In this document: positions 3,391-16,101 of the stretch, piece after piece
How positions within the stretch are numbered: position 1 is the stretch's first letter
How the letters are laid out: each line of letters opens with the position of its first letter
IMG/VR virus record: IMGVR_UViG_3300050192_000013
Location: 1 to 64,000 of that record
Length of the DNA: 64,000 bases
Origin: a virus
Reading direction: 5' to 3' (one strand)
Translations under genes and position numbers: made by a program
Notes under the pieces: generated by a model
What the model was told of the DNA's origin: nothing
Databases searched by the model: none
What the model saw: only the letters and a program-made list of their open reading frames with translations

Positions 3391-3813
3391 ATGAGTATGT
3401 ACGATAACGTCGAAGTGAAATACCCACTGCCTCCTCCGGGTGGCGAGAACTTCCAGACGAAAGACTTTGATTGCCAACTTGATTCGCTGGAAATCACACA
3501 GGATGGCCGACTACTCCGCCACGAGTGCGATTATGAGGAAGTACCAAAGGAAGAACTGAAGCATCAAGGCGCGGATGCAGACCCGTTTGAACGCATATTA
3601 GAACCAACTATGCGCGTCAAGGAAGGGTCGCAACGCGCCGTAGAAATACCGCATCATGGCGACGTGTTTATCATCGGCGACAAGACGGGCAGGAATGATG
3701 GCGTCTTATGCGCGGATAACTTGTGCGCAGGTGACTTTGTGGAGTATCGCATTCGTTTCACTAACGGACGCGTGGAATCAGTGGAGTTAATTCCAGAGAG
3801 ACAATGGACATGA
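3391..3813 (+). CDS. Conserved phage/bacterial hypothetical protein (MYDNV...PLP family)
   Basis: 140 residues. The start MSMYDNVEVKYPLP followed by FQTKDFDCQLDSLEIT..DGRL matches a small widespread family seen in phages and plasmids, function unknown. The C-terminal part is beta-rich. Its stop overlaps the next reading frame. Confidence 0.75.
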   Translation: MSMYDNVEVKYPLPPPGGENFQTKDFDCQLDSLEITQDGRLLRHECDYEEVPKEELKHQGADADPFERILEPTMRVKEGSQRAVEIPHHGDVFIIGDKTGRNDGVLCADNLCAGDFVEYRIRFTNGRVESVELIPERQWT

Positions 3814-4040
3814 CCGAAGCACAAATCAAATATGAACACCAGAATCATCACATGGCTGAAGGCGCAGAAATGACTCCATCCCAGCTAGTTCAGGACTATG
3901 ATTTAATCGCGCACGAAGATTTGCGCATCGGCAATATGAGCCGGTCGGCCAGCGGGACAGTCGAAGCGCCAGGGACAAACGTAAAACAGAAGTCTGGACT
4001 GAATAAGTCCATCATGGATGCCGCGTGGGGCCAATTAATA

Positions 4041-4061
4041 GGGAATTATATACATGACTAC
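4041..4061 (+). repeat. TIR, left end of the 267-bp cassette
   Basis: GGGAATTATATAC followed by ATGACTAC. The ATG at 4054 opens a 13-codon leader frame reading into the cassette. Confidence 0.93.
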
Positions 4062-4095
4062 AGCGAAAAGGACGCTGCTGAATGCAACCGCATGA
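4054..4095 (+). CDS. Putative 13-residue leader peptide started inside the TIR
   Basis: ATGACTACAGCG... encodes MTTAKRTLLNATA. The start codon is part of the TIR and the frame overlaps the start of the cassette gene (4082) by 14 nt, an arrangement suited to translational coupling. Expression is inferred only. Confidence 0.4.
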   Translation: MTTAKRTLLNATA

Positions 4096-4282
4096 AGAGA
4101 GGGTAGTTACCGAGCAAAAAGAACTGGGCGACAAACTTGTCAAACTGCGCGAGTTCATCGCCTCGAATCCAATCTTTCAGAAACTTCCCCGCGACGAGCA
4201 GGAGCGACTGAAAACACAAGAGTTTCACATGTCCATGTACTGGAGGGTGCTTGGCGACAGGATCGGCGAATTCCCGAAGTAG
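4082..4282 (+). CDS. Small phage protein, resembles crAss001_48-related family
   Basis: 66 residues: an N-terminal PHEERVVTEQKELGDKL, a central KLREFI and a C-terminal MYWRVLGDRI. This matches the pattern of short helical phage proteins annotated as crAss001_48-related; their function is unknown. It is the sole cargo of the 267-bp cassette. The ATG sits within the leader frame opened by the TIR, and its TAG stop lies 5 nt before the right TIR. Confidence 0.75.
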   Translation: MQPHEERVVTEQKELGDKLVKLREFIASNPIFQKLPRDEQERLKTQEFHMSMYWRVLGDRIGEFPK

Positions 4283-4286
4283 TCCT

Positions 4287-4307
4287 GTAGTCAAGTATAT
4301 AATTCCC
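4287..4307 (-). repeat. TIR, right end of the 267-bp cassette
   Basis: GTAGTCAAGTATATAATTCC plus a final C, the inverse of the left end with one mismatch. Read outward it contains TATAAT near the edge, a potential outward -10 box. Confidence 0.93.
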
Positions 4308-4545
4308 AATTAATATGGCAGATCATTTATAAGGCTGAGAGCGCCGGTAAGTGGGTCGTGCCAGTCAATCCACGAGGCACGAGTCAAAAGTGTTCGCAGT
4401 GCGGCGAAGTTGTCAAAAAGGAATTGTCGGAGCGCAGGCATAAGTGTGCCTGCGGTAGCGACTTGGACCGAGACCACAACGCCGCGATAAACATCCAAAG
4501 GCTCGGGATGAGCCTTGCGGGCCTTGCGCCTTCAGAATGTATGAG

Positions 4546-4566
4546 GTAGTTATGTATATAAATCCC
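4546..4566 (-). repeat. Solo IS1595-type TIR at the tnpB 3' end
   Basis: GTAGTTATGTATATAAATCC plus C matches the right-end TIR at 19 of 21 positions. The TAG stop of the tnpB remnant lies in it. No matching left end is visible before the remnant, so this is probably the surviving end of a cassette that once carried tnpB and lost its 5' part. Confidence 0.85.
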
Positions 4567-5151: not shown

Positions 5152-5400
5152 ATGACCGATCAAGATGAAGGCACACGCCAAGCCGAAGCATTCAATTTAA
5201 GCGATACCGAATACGAGTTAGAGTGGCTTGCATCGCTACCCGATATAGAACGCGACGTATCGGCCTACTTCTATCGCATATTTTCTCCTTGCTTTGAGTT
5301 GATCCAGGAAGTGCCAGTAAGGACGGAATGCGGAGATACGCTGCGTGTTGATTACGTCGGCAGAGAACACGCTGGAGACCTAAATGGGGGAATTATATAG
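5152..5400 (+). pseudogene. Phage hypothetical protein truncated by cassette insertion
   Basis: From ATG 5152 (MTDQDEGTRQAEAF) the protein has WLASLPDIERDVSAYFYRIFSPCFELIQEVPVR..DTLRVDYVG, a beta-rich segment typical of a longer phage protein. The last codons (NGGII) derive from the TIR at 5388, so the original 3' end is lost. I do not find it after the cassette at 6224. Confidence 0.7.
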
Positions 5401-5408
5401 ATGACTAC
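5388..5408 (+). repeat. TIR, left end of the 836-bp cassette
   Basis: GGGAATTATATAG followed by ATGACTAC; the ATG at 5401 opens a 13-codon leader. Confidence 0.9.
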
Positions 5409-5442
5409 ACCAAATCAGCAGAATCAGAGGGATAGCCTGTGA
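5401..5442 (+). CDS. Putative 13-residue leader peptide started inside the TIR
   Basis: Encodes MTTPNQQNQRDSL. Its TGA overlaps the GTG start of the PAPS-reductase-like gene (GTGA). Leader length equals that in the 267-bp cassette. AGAGGGA near its end can serve as ribosome site for the main gene. Confidence 0.4.
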   Translation: MTTPNQQNQRDSL

Positions 5443-6206
5443 AGCGAATCGTCCAGTTTTCCGGCGGACTTTGTTCGTTCTTCGCGGCAAAGCGCGTGGT
5501 TGAGCAGTTCGGAAAAGACGATGTAACCCTGCTCTTCGCGGACACTCTCATCGAGTCTCCGGGACTGTACCGTTTCCGTGATGCCGCTGCTGCGTTTCTC
5601 GGCCTCCCTGTGACCGTGATTGCGGAGGGGCGTACGCCGTGGCAGGTATTCAAGGACTGGGGCGTGAAAGGGTTTTTGGGGAACTCCCGCGTGGACATCT
5701 GCTCTCAAGTTCTCAAGCGCGAATTTTGCCGGGGATGGGTCGCCGGACACTGCTTTATGGAGCCAGTGGTCCTGTATGTCGGAATTTCTTGGGACGAAGG
5801 GCGTATAGATGAAATTCGCGCCAACTGGCTACCCTGGGCCGTAGAAGCGCCGATGTGCGACCCTCCGTACCTCACCAAGTGCGACATGATTCGGGAAGCT
5901 ACCGCGCTAGGCTTGCCGCTGTCAGAGGCATACGCGGACGGATTCTCTCATGACAACTGTGGGGGCGGATGCGTCAAGGCCGGGCAGGCTCATTTTGCGC
6001 AACTCTACAAGATTCGGCCAGCGGTTTATGCGGAGTGGGAGCGCAACGAAGAGGACGTGCGTAAGCATATTGGCCAAGATGTCTCAATCCTCAAAGACAG
6101 GAGATGTGGACAGACCAAGCCTTTGACGTTGGCGGCGTTCAAGGCACGGATTGAGACAGGCGATTATGACGTTCACGAATTTGGAGGATGCGGATGTGGC
6201 GTGTAG
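5439..6206 (+). CDS. Phosphoadenosine phosphosulfate reductase-family (PP-loop) protein
   Basis: 255 residues. The N-terminal VQFSGGLCSFFAAKRV contains the SGGxxS PP-loop (residues 8-13) of N-type ATP pyrophosphatases. A Cys-rich C-terminus (CGGGCVKAGQ and GGCGCGV) resembles PAPS-reductase-family proteins of phages, which include relatives of DndC and other ATP-dependent nucleic-acid or sulfur-transfer enzymes; the substrate cannot be fixed from sequence. It starts with GTG coupled to a TIR-borne leader, and its final TAG (6204-6206) lies inside the right TIR, so the coding unit is fully bounded by the cassette. Confidence 0.85.
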   Translation: MKRIVQFSGGLCSFFAAKRVVEQFGKDDVTLLFADTLIESPGLYRFRDAAAAFLGLPVTVIAEGRTPWQVFKDWGVKGFLGNSRVDICSQVLKREFCRGWVAGHCFMEPVVLYVGISWDEGRIDEIRANWLPWAVEAPMCDPPYLTKCDMIREATALGLPLSEAYADGFSHDNCGGGCVKAGQAHFAQLYKIRPAVYAEWERNEEDVRKHIGQDVSILKDRRCGQTKPLTLAAFKARIETGDYDVHEFGGCGCGV

Positions 6207-6223
6207 GCAAGTATATAATTCCC
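6203..6223 (-). repeat. TIR, right end of the 836-bp cassette
   Basis: GTAGGCAAGTATATAATTCC plus C; supplies the TAG stop of the cassette gene. Confidence 0.9.
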
Positions 6224-14734: not shown

Positions 14735-14760
14735 GGTTTCTGCGCCTCCCCGAAAAGAAA

Positions 14761-14781
14761 GGGAATTACATACATGACTAC
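14761..14781 (+). repeat. TIR of the IS1595-family element (left)
   Basis: GGGAATTACATAC followed by ATGACTAC. Confidence 0.93.
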
Positions 14782-14783
14782 CC

Positions 14784-15569
14784 CTAGCTTTTGGCCGCAT
14801 CGCGTTTCTTCTTTCGTATCCGTCCATGCAACCCGCGTTTAAGAACTGCCCAGACGGACTCGATTCCATTCGTGTGCGCCGCACCGCGTTTGTACTCGCC
14901 CGCCGAATGGTTCACGGCGTCATGCCGGAAGAAAAGGCCGTCCAGGTCGGAGTAAGCCATGTGCTCATCGGTGTACAGTTGCGAACCGACTTCCACATTG
15001 GCGTGGATCTCACCTTGAATGGTCTGGATGGTCCGATCCTCGATAACCTTCGCTACGGTGCGCCCGCCGCGTTCTCGCAAGCCCATGACGGCGACCTTGC
15101 CGACTGGCCCGCGTCCCATGCGGAGCTTCTTGGATTCGTGCTTGTTCGCTTCCTTGCCACCCACAAAGCACTCGTCGATTTCGACCGTGCCGCGAAGCTT
15201 GTCAATCTCATCGTCGGAGCCGCAAGCTTCACGGAGCCGGGACAGCATGAACCATGCCGACTTCTGGGTTACACCAATCTCCTTGGCAAGTTGAAGGCTG
15301 CTGATTCCCTTACGAGCGGTCACCAGCAGATACATGGCGTAAACCCACTTGTGAAGCGGGATATGCGACCGCTCGAAGACGCTTTCGACTTCGGTTTCGG
15401 ACGGTAGTTCAGCACCAAGTCCGCTATCTGATCCAGTTCGACCGGGGCCTTCATGCGGCCTCCTTGCGGTCCACTCGGGTGTGATGCGGATAAATAAGGC
15501 TCCATTGCCAGCAACCCGAACCGCGCCCGCCAAGACTGCGCTTGACCCATTGCGGTCTTCGCATGGCAC
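14784..15569 (-). pseudogene. IS1595/ISXO2-like transposase, catalytic region only
   Basis: Recognisable from VFERSHIPLHKWVYAMYLLV onward: TARKGISSLQLAKEIGVTQK (helix-turn-helix-like), then VEIDECFVGGKE (first catalytic Asp), LYTDEHMAYSDL (second Asp) and HTNGIESVWAVLKRG (third acidic position). It ends at IRKKKRDAAKS right at the TIR, lacking the usual RYVNEF...GKRL.Y tail. The first ~85 residues of this frame are not transposase-like; they overlap the ORFs at 15320 and 15451 in other frames. Activity is doubtful. Confidence 0.85.
15320..15454 (-). pseudogene. 5' part of a phage gene joined to transposase DNA
   Basis: MKAPVELDQIADLVLNYRPK resembles AYQIADIVLRYQP in the gene at 13642, so this is probably the 5' end of a phage gene. 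After about 25 residues the DNA becomes transposase sequence read in another frame, and the ORF ends at 44 residues. Overlaps the upstream ORF by 4 nt. Confidence 0.6.
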
Positions 15570-15702
15570 AGCAACCAGGGCACGCCTCAGGCTTGATAGG
15601 GGCGTTACATTCGTATTCCATTATCTCCTGTCGCGTGAAGTTAGCGAAGTCCATCTCTATGATTTTGTGCCCGCTGTAATAACACCTTCGTTGCCCGCCC
15701 AT
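15451..15702 (-). CDS. Cys-rich ORF inside the IS1595-family element
   Basis: 83 residues (MGGQRRCYYSGHKIIEMDF...). Contains YECNAPIKPEACPGCCAMRR, a likely zinc site, and GCWQWSLIYPHHTRVD. It directly follows the transposase tail ORF (TAAATG). It looks like one of the small zinc proteins of the surrounding operon rather than a transposase domain, so it may be passenger DNA. Confidence 0.55.
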   Translation of the reverse strand: MGGQRRCYYSGHKIIEMDFANFTRQEIMEYECNAPIKPEACPGCCAMRRPQWVKRSLGGRGSGCWQWSLIYPHHTRVDRKEAA

Positions 15703-15921
15703 TTACGCAACCTCCTTGCCGATGAGCCGTTTGTACGTGAGCCGCTTGCCGACAGATGCGGCCACGAAGCTATTAAGCCGCGCTGTGGTGTGGTTGCGGA
15801 CGTTACCTTCGTTCAGTCGGAAGGTGAACTCATCGACGTAGCGCGGCGCGGAAACGGGCGAAAAAGGCTGCGCGAAAGGCGAAGGGCTAACGCTATGACT
15901 TATCAGCCTAAAGGTAGTCAT
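15703..15921 (-). pseudogene. Transposase C-terminal tail, started from the TIR ATG
   Basis: From the TIR's ATGACTAC: MTTFRLISHSVSPSPFAQ..., then APRYVDEFTFRLNEGNV and AASVGKRLTYKRLI. The latter two match the C-terminal tail that the transposase at 14784 lacks. It is on the same strand but upstream, so the gene is permuted rather than simply truncated. Confidence 0.7.
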
Positions 15922-15934
15922 GTATATAATTCCC
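15914..15934 (-). repeat. TIR of the IS1595-family element (right)
   Basis: GTAGTCATGTATATAATTCC plus C. Outward TATAAT is present. Confidence 0.93.
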
Positions 15935-16101
15935 AAAAGAAACAGTGCCCGGTCTTGCATTGGCTTAACCTGATGCGTGCTCCATCCTCCAAATTGGGAT
16001 TGGTTCGCCCATCGTATCAACTGATTCGCCTCATCATTTAGCAGCCATTCCAAGTGCGCGATGCGTAGCTTAGCCTGCTTCAACTCTTCCTCTGTAGTCA
16101 T
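15935..16101 (-). pseudogene. 62-residue phage gene interrupted near its 3' end by the IS
   Basis: Starts MTTEEELKQAKLRIAHLEWL, an amphipathic helix. Excising the IS and one target duplication restores ...ALFLFGEAQKP followed by TGA that overlaps the ATG of the gene at 14734, the operon's usual ATGA coupling. At present the frame reads through the TIR into the transposase tail and stops at 15703 (132 residues). Its own start ATGACTAC and upstream GGGAATT look like a shortened TIR. Confidence 0.75.

Follow-up and report, generated by a model that had tools for sequence, protein, structure and literature searches.

A 267-bp segment of a phage genome, at positions 4041 to 4307, is very probably a non-autonomous one-gene transposon, that is, a mobile insertion cassette, of a phage-associated IS1595-family lineage. 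The segment (cassette A) lies in a stretch of 64,000 nucleotides, referred to here as the window, which belongs to a 68,528-bp IMG/VR virus contig carrying terminase, major capsid and tape-measure genes. As is typical of a mobile insertion cassette, IS ends enclose a gene other than a transposase, and autonomous partners share these ends, namely element D in the same phage and 48 further transposase-bearing elements of the same TIR family. The ends of cassette A are terminal inverted repeats (TIRs) with a target duplication (TSD), the mark of DDE transposition, and they probably set it apart from an integron gene cassette. The first-pass annotation had treated it as a single odd cassette. This had to be given up, as two more elements and a solo end with the same TIR are found in the window and the family is widespread.

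The left TIR (GGGAATTATATACATGACTACAG, 4041 to 4063, plus strand) is the inverse of the right TIR (GGGAATTATATACTTGACTACAG, 4285 to 4307, minus strand), with 22 of 23 positions identical. The inverted ends noted at first pass were thus real, while their length had been given as 21 bp (20 of 21 matching) instead of 23 bp. The perfect 8-bp target duplication reported then was recovered as well, with AATTAATA present at both 4033 to 4040 and 4308 to 4315. Between the ends there is no transposase but, as had been claimed, a single phage-type gene of 66 residues (4082 to 4282, plus strand), which is related to crAss001_48 (Pfam PF21825, E 8e-17; PHROG_774, E 5e-14). It is 77% identical to a free homologue (L298) with a dN/dS of 0.08, a comparison that includes evolution outside the cassette. 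TIR-like ends around this gene at homologous sites without target duplications had been named as evidence against transposition; seven further phage contigs contain relatives of it (L298 and six more distant ones), and none of these is flanked by TIRs. The 66-residue frame is a real phage gene, and an ordinary one elsewhere.

When the window was searched with the TIR pattern (up to three mismatches), seven matches were observed where 0.00 would be expected, and 100 dinucleotide shuffles of the window yielded none. These matches are both ends of cassette A, of cassette B and of element D, along with a solo end at 4545 to 4566. Cassette B (5388 to 6223, plus strand, 836 bp) has the same TIRs and no matching TSD (CTAAATGG and GAAGCAAA). 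It carries a phosphoadenosine phosphosulfate (PAPS) reductase-like gene of 255 residues (5439 to 6206, plus strand; PHROG_424, E 4.5e-38), and a gene of the same family is the passenger of an autonomous element (L089).

Element D (14761 to 15934, minus strand, 1174 bp) is an IS1595-family element with TIRs of the same family and a perfect 8-bp duplication, AAAAGAAA, at 14753 to 14760 and 15935 to 15942. The core of its transposase (DDE_Tnp_IS1595, 14784 to 15569, minus strand; PF12762, E 9e-33) is 74% identical to residues 59-253 of the reference transposase of the family (L067), and a detached C-terminal tail (15703 to 15921, minus strand) is 67% identical to residues 258-303. It is without the N-terminal zinc ribbon, and the tail lies upstream of the core, in a permuted order; the small basic ORF that usually stands behind the transposase is here split around the core. 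The permutation reflects either a rearranged copy or an assembly artefact. There is no second transposase in the 68.5-kb record, element D being the sole match to the transposase query. Because its transposase is split, permuted and the only one in the record, element D is probably not the active source, and the enzyme itself is probably inactive.

The scan of IMG/VR with the TIR pattern returned 78 stretches, and two variants of the pattern returned 84 and at least 120; the reversed pattern, used as a control, returned none against the 78. Elements were called by pairing ends with a TSD match of 7/8 or 8/8. The first-pass annotation had proposed such a search for the TIR pair in viral and bacterial genomes, and it yielded at least 115 distinct elements, at least 112 of them in viral contigs and three in bacterial MAG contigs. 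Their TSDs are 81% A+T. Sampling was by near-exact TIR patterns.

Two classes are seen among these elements. The first comprises 49 of the 115 listed, with a match to the L067 transposase (partial copies counted) and a median length of 1660 bp. The second, transposase-less class has at least 66 members, all viral, mostly with a single gene and with a median length of 524.5 bp (range 191-2459). There are 38 transposase ORFs of at least 290 residues; the DDE triad and the four zinc-ribbon cysteines are present in 37 of them, and their median pairwise identity is 67%. L067 itself matches PF12762 (E 7e-47) and the zinc ribbon PF12760 (E 3.5e-9). The autonomous partners have the DDE domain, the N-terminal zinc ribbon and the 8-bp TSD; in the IS1595 family the zinc ribbon is present in all groups except IS1016, and an 8-bp TSD is usual (PMC8101967). 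Autonomous elements usually carry passengers as well; these are small ORFs immediately upstream of the transposase or larger genes downstream of it. In many autonomous elements, for example L067, L140 and L171, the transposase gene is followed by a basic ORF of about 35-55 residues whose motif resembles LD-IAD-VL-YRPKPKSK. Four transposase-less elements look like deletion derivatives of autonomous ones: in L127 the first residues of the transposase gene survive, and in L105, L260 and L097 its tail or the small basic ORF that follows it. It was also observed that a 476-bp cassette sits 20 bp inside the TIR of a DHH phosphoesterase cassette (L012:7107-8583).

IS1595 elements are common in bacteria and plasmids, and it may be asked whether the cassettes are moved by a transposase encoded by the bacterial host, with the phages as passive targets. 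The broken look of the window's own transposase would fit such a proposal, and so would two bacterial MAG elements that have the same TIR and transposases 57-63% identical. At least two bacterial full elements lie in chromosomal surroundings, adjoining ribonucleotide reductase or restriction-modification genes; the lineage is therefore not strictly phage-only, and bridges to bacteria exist. The distribution of the elements nevertheless makes a host source unlikely. A slightly stricter TIR pattern matched 23 times in 257 Gb of GTDB genome contigs, with at least nine of the matches from one Rhodobacteraceae MAG, as compared with the 78 viral matches of the slightly looser pattern. Moreover, 46 of the 49 transposase-bearing elements are viral, and plasmid transposases reach only about 49% identity at best. 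Among cultured phages, only three unannotated faecal records match the transposase, at 34-38% identity, and there is therefore no isolate model. As the best plasmid match stands at about 49% and the best cultured-phage match at 38%, the lineage is a separate, mostly viral one.

Evidence of mobility comes from elements that are shared between contigs. L143 carries a TnpB cassette that matches the one in L141 and L092 at 95.7% identity; the identity is bounded by the element ends, and the flanks are unrelated. Likewise, the element is shared and the flanks are not in L121 and L136 (75% identical) and in L109 and L143 (65%). A C5 methyltransferase cassette is common to L093 and L131 (93%), the latter contig ending within the cassette. 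The base composition also differs by 15-25 points of G+C between cassette and phage in six cases (L065, L095, L122, L133, L173, L222), for example 0.56 versus 0.34 in L065, 0.45 versus 0.70 in L122 and 0.45 versus 0.65 in L222. The cassettes at L065:1514-2028 and L095:6653-7192 have 51-56% G+C in phages of 34-35%, which suggests that they moved between very different phages. Identical cassettes with identical flanks were recovered from independent metagenomes (for example L014/L015, L019/L028, L065/L080), which argues against misassembly.

It is conceivable that such cassettes were put together by recombination between TIR-bearing elements, or by homologous exchange in phages, with the TIRs acting mainly as recombination sites. 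TSDs are absent from cassette B and from the TnpB copies in L141/L092, L118 and L038, and the IS of the window is permuted, as this proposal would have it. It is, however, very improbable, since the identity of L143 to L141 ends at the element tips and since 111 of the 115 elements listed have TSDs of 8/8 (four have 7/8); the set was selected for having TSDs, but moving one flank by 1-3 bp gave only 8 matches in 2250 tests.

The cassettes have a simple and recurrent layout. It was derived from 57 cassettes with an assignable main ORF (the longest one; nine were set by hand and nine elements skipped). The median distance from the 5' end of the element to the start of the main ORF is 42 bp, that from its stop to the 3' end is 22 bp, and this one ORF makes up a median of 87% of the cassette; between the two TIRs there is thus the gene, preceded by a short stretch in which a ribosome-binding site would fit. 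Some exceptions occur among the 66 transposase-less elements, a few of which are larger, carry several ORFs or lack a clear gene. At position 5 of the TIR, A is found at the gene's 5' end and T at its 3' end in 16 elements of the same set of 57, against one reversed (p = 0.0003); thus, the cargo tends to keep one orientation with respect to the two ends. The idea of a start codon inside the TIR was dropped: NTG often follows TATATA, yet it is used by only 7 of the 57 chosen cargo ORFs, and the excess at 5' over 3' ends is not significant (p = 0.09). Disruption of target genes could likewise not be read from ORFs spanning the joints, as those of at least 80 residues occur in 77 of 115 joints, too many in high-G+C DNA to be meaningful.

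The cargo of the transposase-less elements is rich in DNA modification. It includes N6/N4 methyltransferases (L071, L087, L105, L153, L198, L216, L222, L223), C5 methyltransferases (L074, L093), Dam (L014, with L106 just under the Pfam cut-off), D12 (L119), MT-A70 (L152), a DNA methyltransferase recognised by PHROG (L135) and Mom (L173, L216, L268, L124). The others are TnpB (L109, L143), ASCH (L065), DUF3307 (L019), a DHH phosphoesterase (L012) and PHROG_12600 (L079, L112), and many cargo genes have no known family. Among main ORFs of at least 100 residues, 14 of 41 match a Pfam methyltransferase or Mom family, whereas for the 114 flanking genes none of the 25 Pfam families listed is of this kind (nine further families lie beyond these). 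Fisher's test gives p = 1e-9, or 2e-4 if all nine further families were methyltransferase or Mom. Terminase, Mu F, head decoration and SU10 adaptor are among the flanking families listed, and they confirm the phage surroundings of the cassettes. N6/N4, Dam and C5 methyltransferases are carried by both classes of element.

This cargo also bears on whether cassette A is an ordinary MITE, a functionless deletion derivative in which the ORF is accidental. Its small size would suit a MITE, as would the transposase-region remnants retained by the four related elements. In addition, 100-bp gene-less elements with similar TIRs occur in the Rhodobacteraceae MAG CAR3_bin_1 (L270, L272, L274, L285, L286, L289, L292; L286 with an 8-bp duplication), and these are plain MITEs that belong to a related IS of a bacterial bin. 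A MITE has no coding capacity, though, and cassette A carries a PF21825 gene under purifying selection. Across the family, most of each cassette is one ORF and the cargo matches known phage families. The dN/dS is likewise low between cassettes (0.27 for tnpB, 0.09 for L121/L136), in line with the 0.08 of the window gene. Conserved cargo genes under purifying selection thus largely refute the MITE proposal, which is highly implausible.

The gene into which cassette A has inserted is a tnpB remnant (3870 to 4549, plus strand), with the TNB domain PF07282 on 4358 to 4549 (E 2.5e-15) and an alignment to the TnpB proteins of L038, L258, L109 and L143. When the element and one TSD are removed, 3804 to 4040 joins 4316 to 4549 in a single open frame, and the rejoined protein aligns unbroken with these four homologues across the joint between KSIMDAAWGQLI and WQIIYKAESAGKW. 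The restoration of the frame on excision, asserted at first pass, thus holds; the gene so restored is not an intact tnpB but its C-terminal third. At the DNA level, the empty site is spanned by L038 and L258 with 71-72% identity. The first-pass annotation had advised looking for the empty site in related phages, and it was found for cassette A alone, in tnpB homologues about 70% identical and not in any near-identical phage. For L065 and L143, a search by way of the flanking proteins did not turn up any close relative lacking the insert. The same annotation had held that tnpB homologues naturally containing the segment would speak against an insertion; the 267-bp segment is absent from the four homologues compared. 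The ends are complementary and sited in a transposon gene, but with these continuous homologues, the 8-bp TSD and the same ends around unrelated genes, there is practically no chance that the segment is an ancestral part of tnpB or a chance or structural palindrome such as an intron-like or regulatory stem.

The claim of a precise transposition by IS1595-type ends is accordingly well founded in the TIRs, the TSD, the empty sites, the presence of element D in this phage and the 65 transposase-less elements of comparable build in other viral contigs. That it was also recent is plausible from the perfect TSD and the nearly perfect TIRs.

The solo end mentioned above (end C, 4545 to 4566, minus strand) is a right TIR with three mismatches that overlaps the tnpB stop codon. 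TnpB cassettes with the same ends are present in L143 and L109, and by analogy the tnpB of the window was probably carried by an earlier cassette that has since decayed. Position 4041 and end C (4566) were also considered as the ends of one 526-bp element, which was rejected, as the TSDs differ (AATTAATA and AAAAAACA). It was further observed that TnpB (OrfB_IS605, Cas12f1-like) recurs as the cargo of IS1595-type ends or beside them (L143, L109, L141, L092, L038, L258, L118 and 3870 to 4566 of the window), and no IS200/IS605 partners were noticed near these copies.

A phage-associated IS1595 transporter-IS lineage with non-autonomous cassettes moved in trans is, with high confidence, the best explanation of these sequences. 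Autonomous members are transporter IS made up of TIR, passenger gene(s), DDE transposase and TIR, and non-autonomous members consist of the ends and typically one gene with its ribosome-binding region. The cassettes may be cut out or copied out in trans by an IS1595 transposase that an autonomous member supplies within the same cell, and their insertion makes the 8-bp, A+T-rich target duplication. By such mobilisation and insertion, cassettes would pass between unrelated phages during co-infection or superinfection of a prophage. The cargo is presumably expressed from neighbouring upstream phage promoters. In this way, ready-to-translate single genes would be delivered, many of them for DNA modification (methyltransferases, Mom), probably to the benefit of the phage.

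The support in hand at the sequence level comprises the ends, the TSDs, the empty site of cassette A, the finding of one cassette at unrelated sites, the cognate elements that encode transposase, the shared cargo families and the derivatives with transposase remnants. Against this explanation stand the split and permuted state of the only transposase in the record, the lack of a TSD in cassette B, an empty site for cassette A alone and the three complete elements in bacterial MAG contigs. A broader proposal has about an even chance of being right. It holds that the lineage forms a gene-exchange system among unrelated phages, in which a pool of standardised one-gene cassettes, rich in DNA modification against restriction, is moved by phage-borne IS1595 transposases and serves as a route of moron acquisition, with a role like that of integrons.

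The family shows concretely how phages can acquire genes one at a time, those of DNA-modifying enzymes included. With methyltransferases, Mom, TnpB, PAPS reductase and many unknowns, the cargo list is also a set of candidate counter-defence genes, and any virome can be searched for mobile phage genes with the TIR as the key.

Several known systems resemble these elements in part. Mobile insertion cassettes (MICs) are represented by IS231-MIC231 of Bacillus cereus and mic-qnrS2 of Aeromonas (PMC4444841 and PMC3129680, which cite de Palmenaer et al. 2004). In those as in the present cassettes, IS ends surround a passenger gene that replaces the transposase, and mobilisation in trans is expected. 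Those MICs are bacterial and belong to other IS families (PMC4444841, PMC3129680), whereas here the ends are of IS1595 type and the carriers are phages; further, one phage gene typically fills the element almost entirely, and dozens of cargos share one TIR family. The autonomous members resemble the IS1595 transporter IS (tIS) MTnSag1/tISSag10 and tISCpe8 (PMC5704250, which cites Siguier et al. 2009): all have a DDE transposase of the IS1595 family, carry passenger genes and duplicate their target, and their TIRs measure about 25 bp. Unlike these bacterial tIS, which are mobilised by conjugation (PMC5704250), they are carried by phages and have phage-type cargo (methyltransferases, Mom, PAPS reductase, TnpB). 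With MITEs, the cassettes share a short, non-autonomous form with TIRs and TSDs, but a MITE has no functional gene, while here a single ORF takes up most of the element.

In the open-access papers that were searched, no description of one-gene phage cassettes with IS1595 ends was found. The parts are of known kinds, and the phage-borne pool of one-gene cassettes appears to be undescribed. Phage morons are single extra genes gained one at a time, and integron cassettes consist of one gene with minimal flanks and depend on a tyrosine recombinase and attC sites. For morons, we know of no defined vehicle, nor of a generally accepted one for a clean-bordered entry into phage genomes. Unlike both, the vehicle here is a DDE transposon with visible ends. 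Its borders, TSDs and empty site can be seen in the sequence, as can the autonomous partners and one cassette shared by two unrelated phages, and moron entry thereby becomes directly testable.
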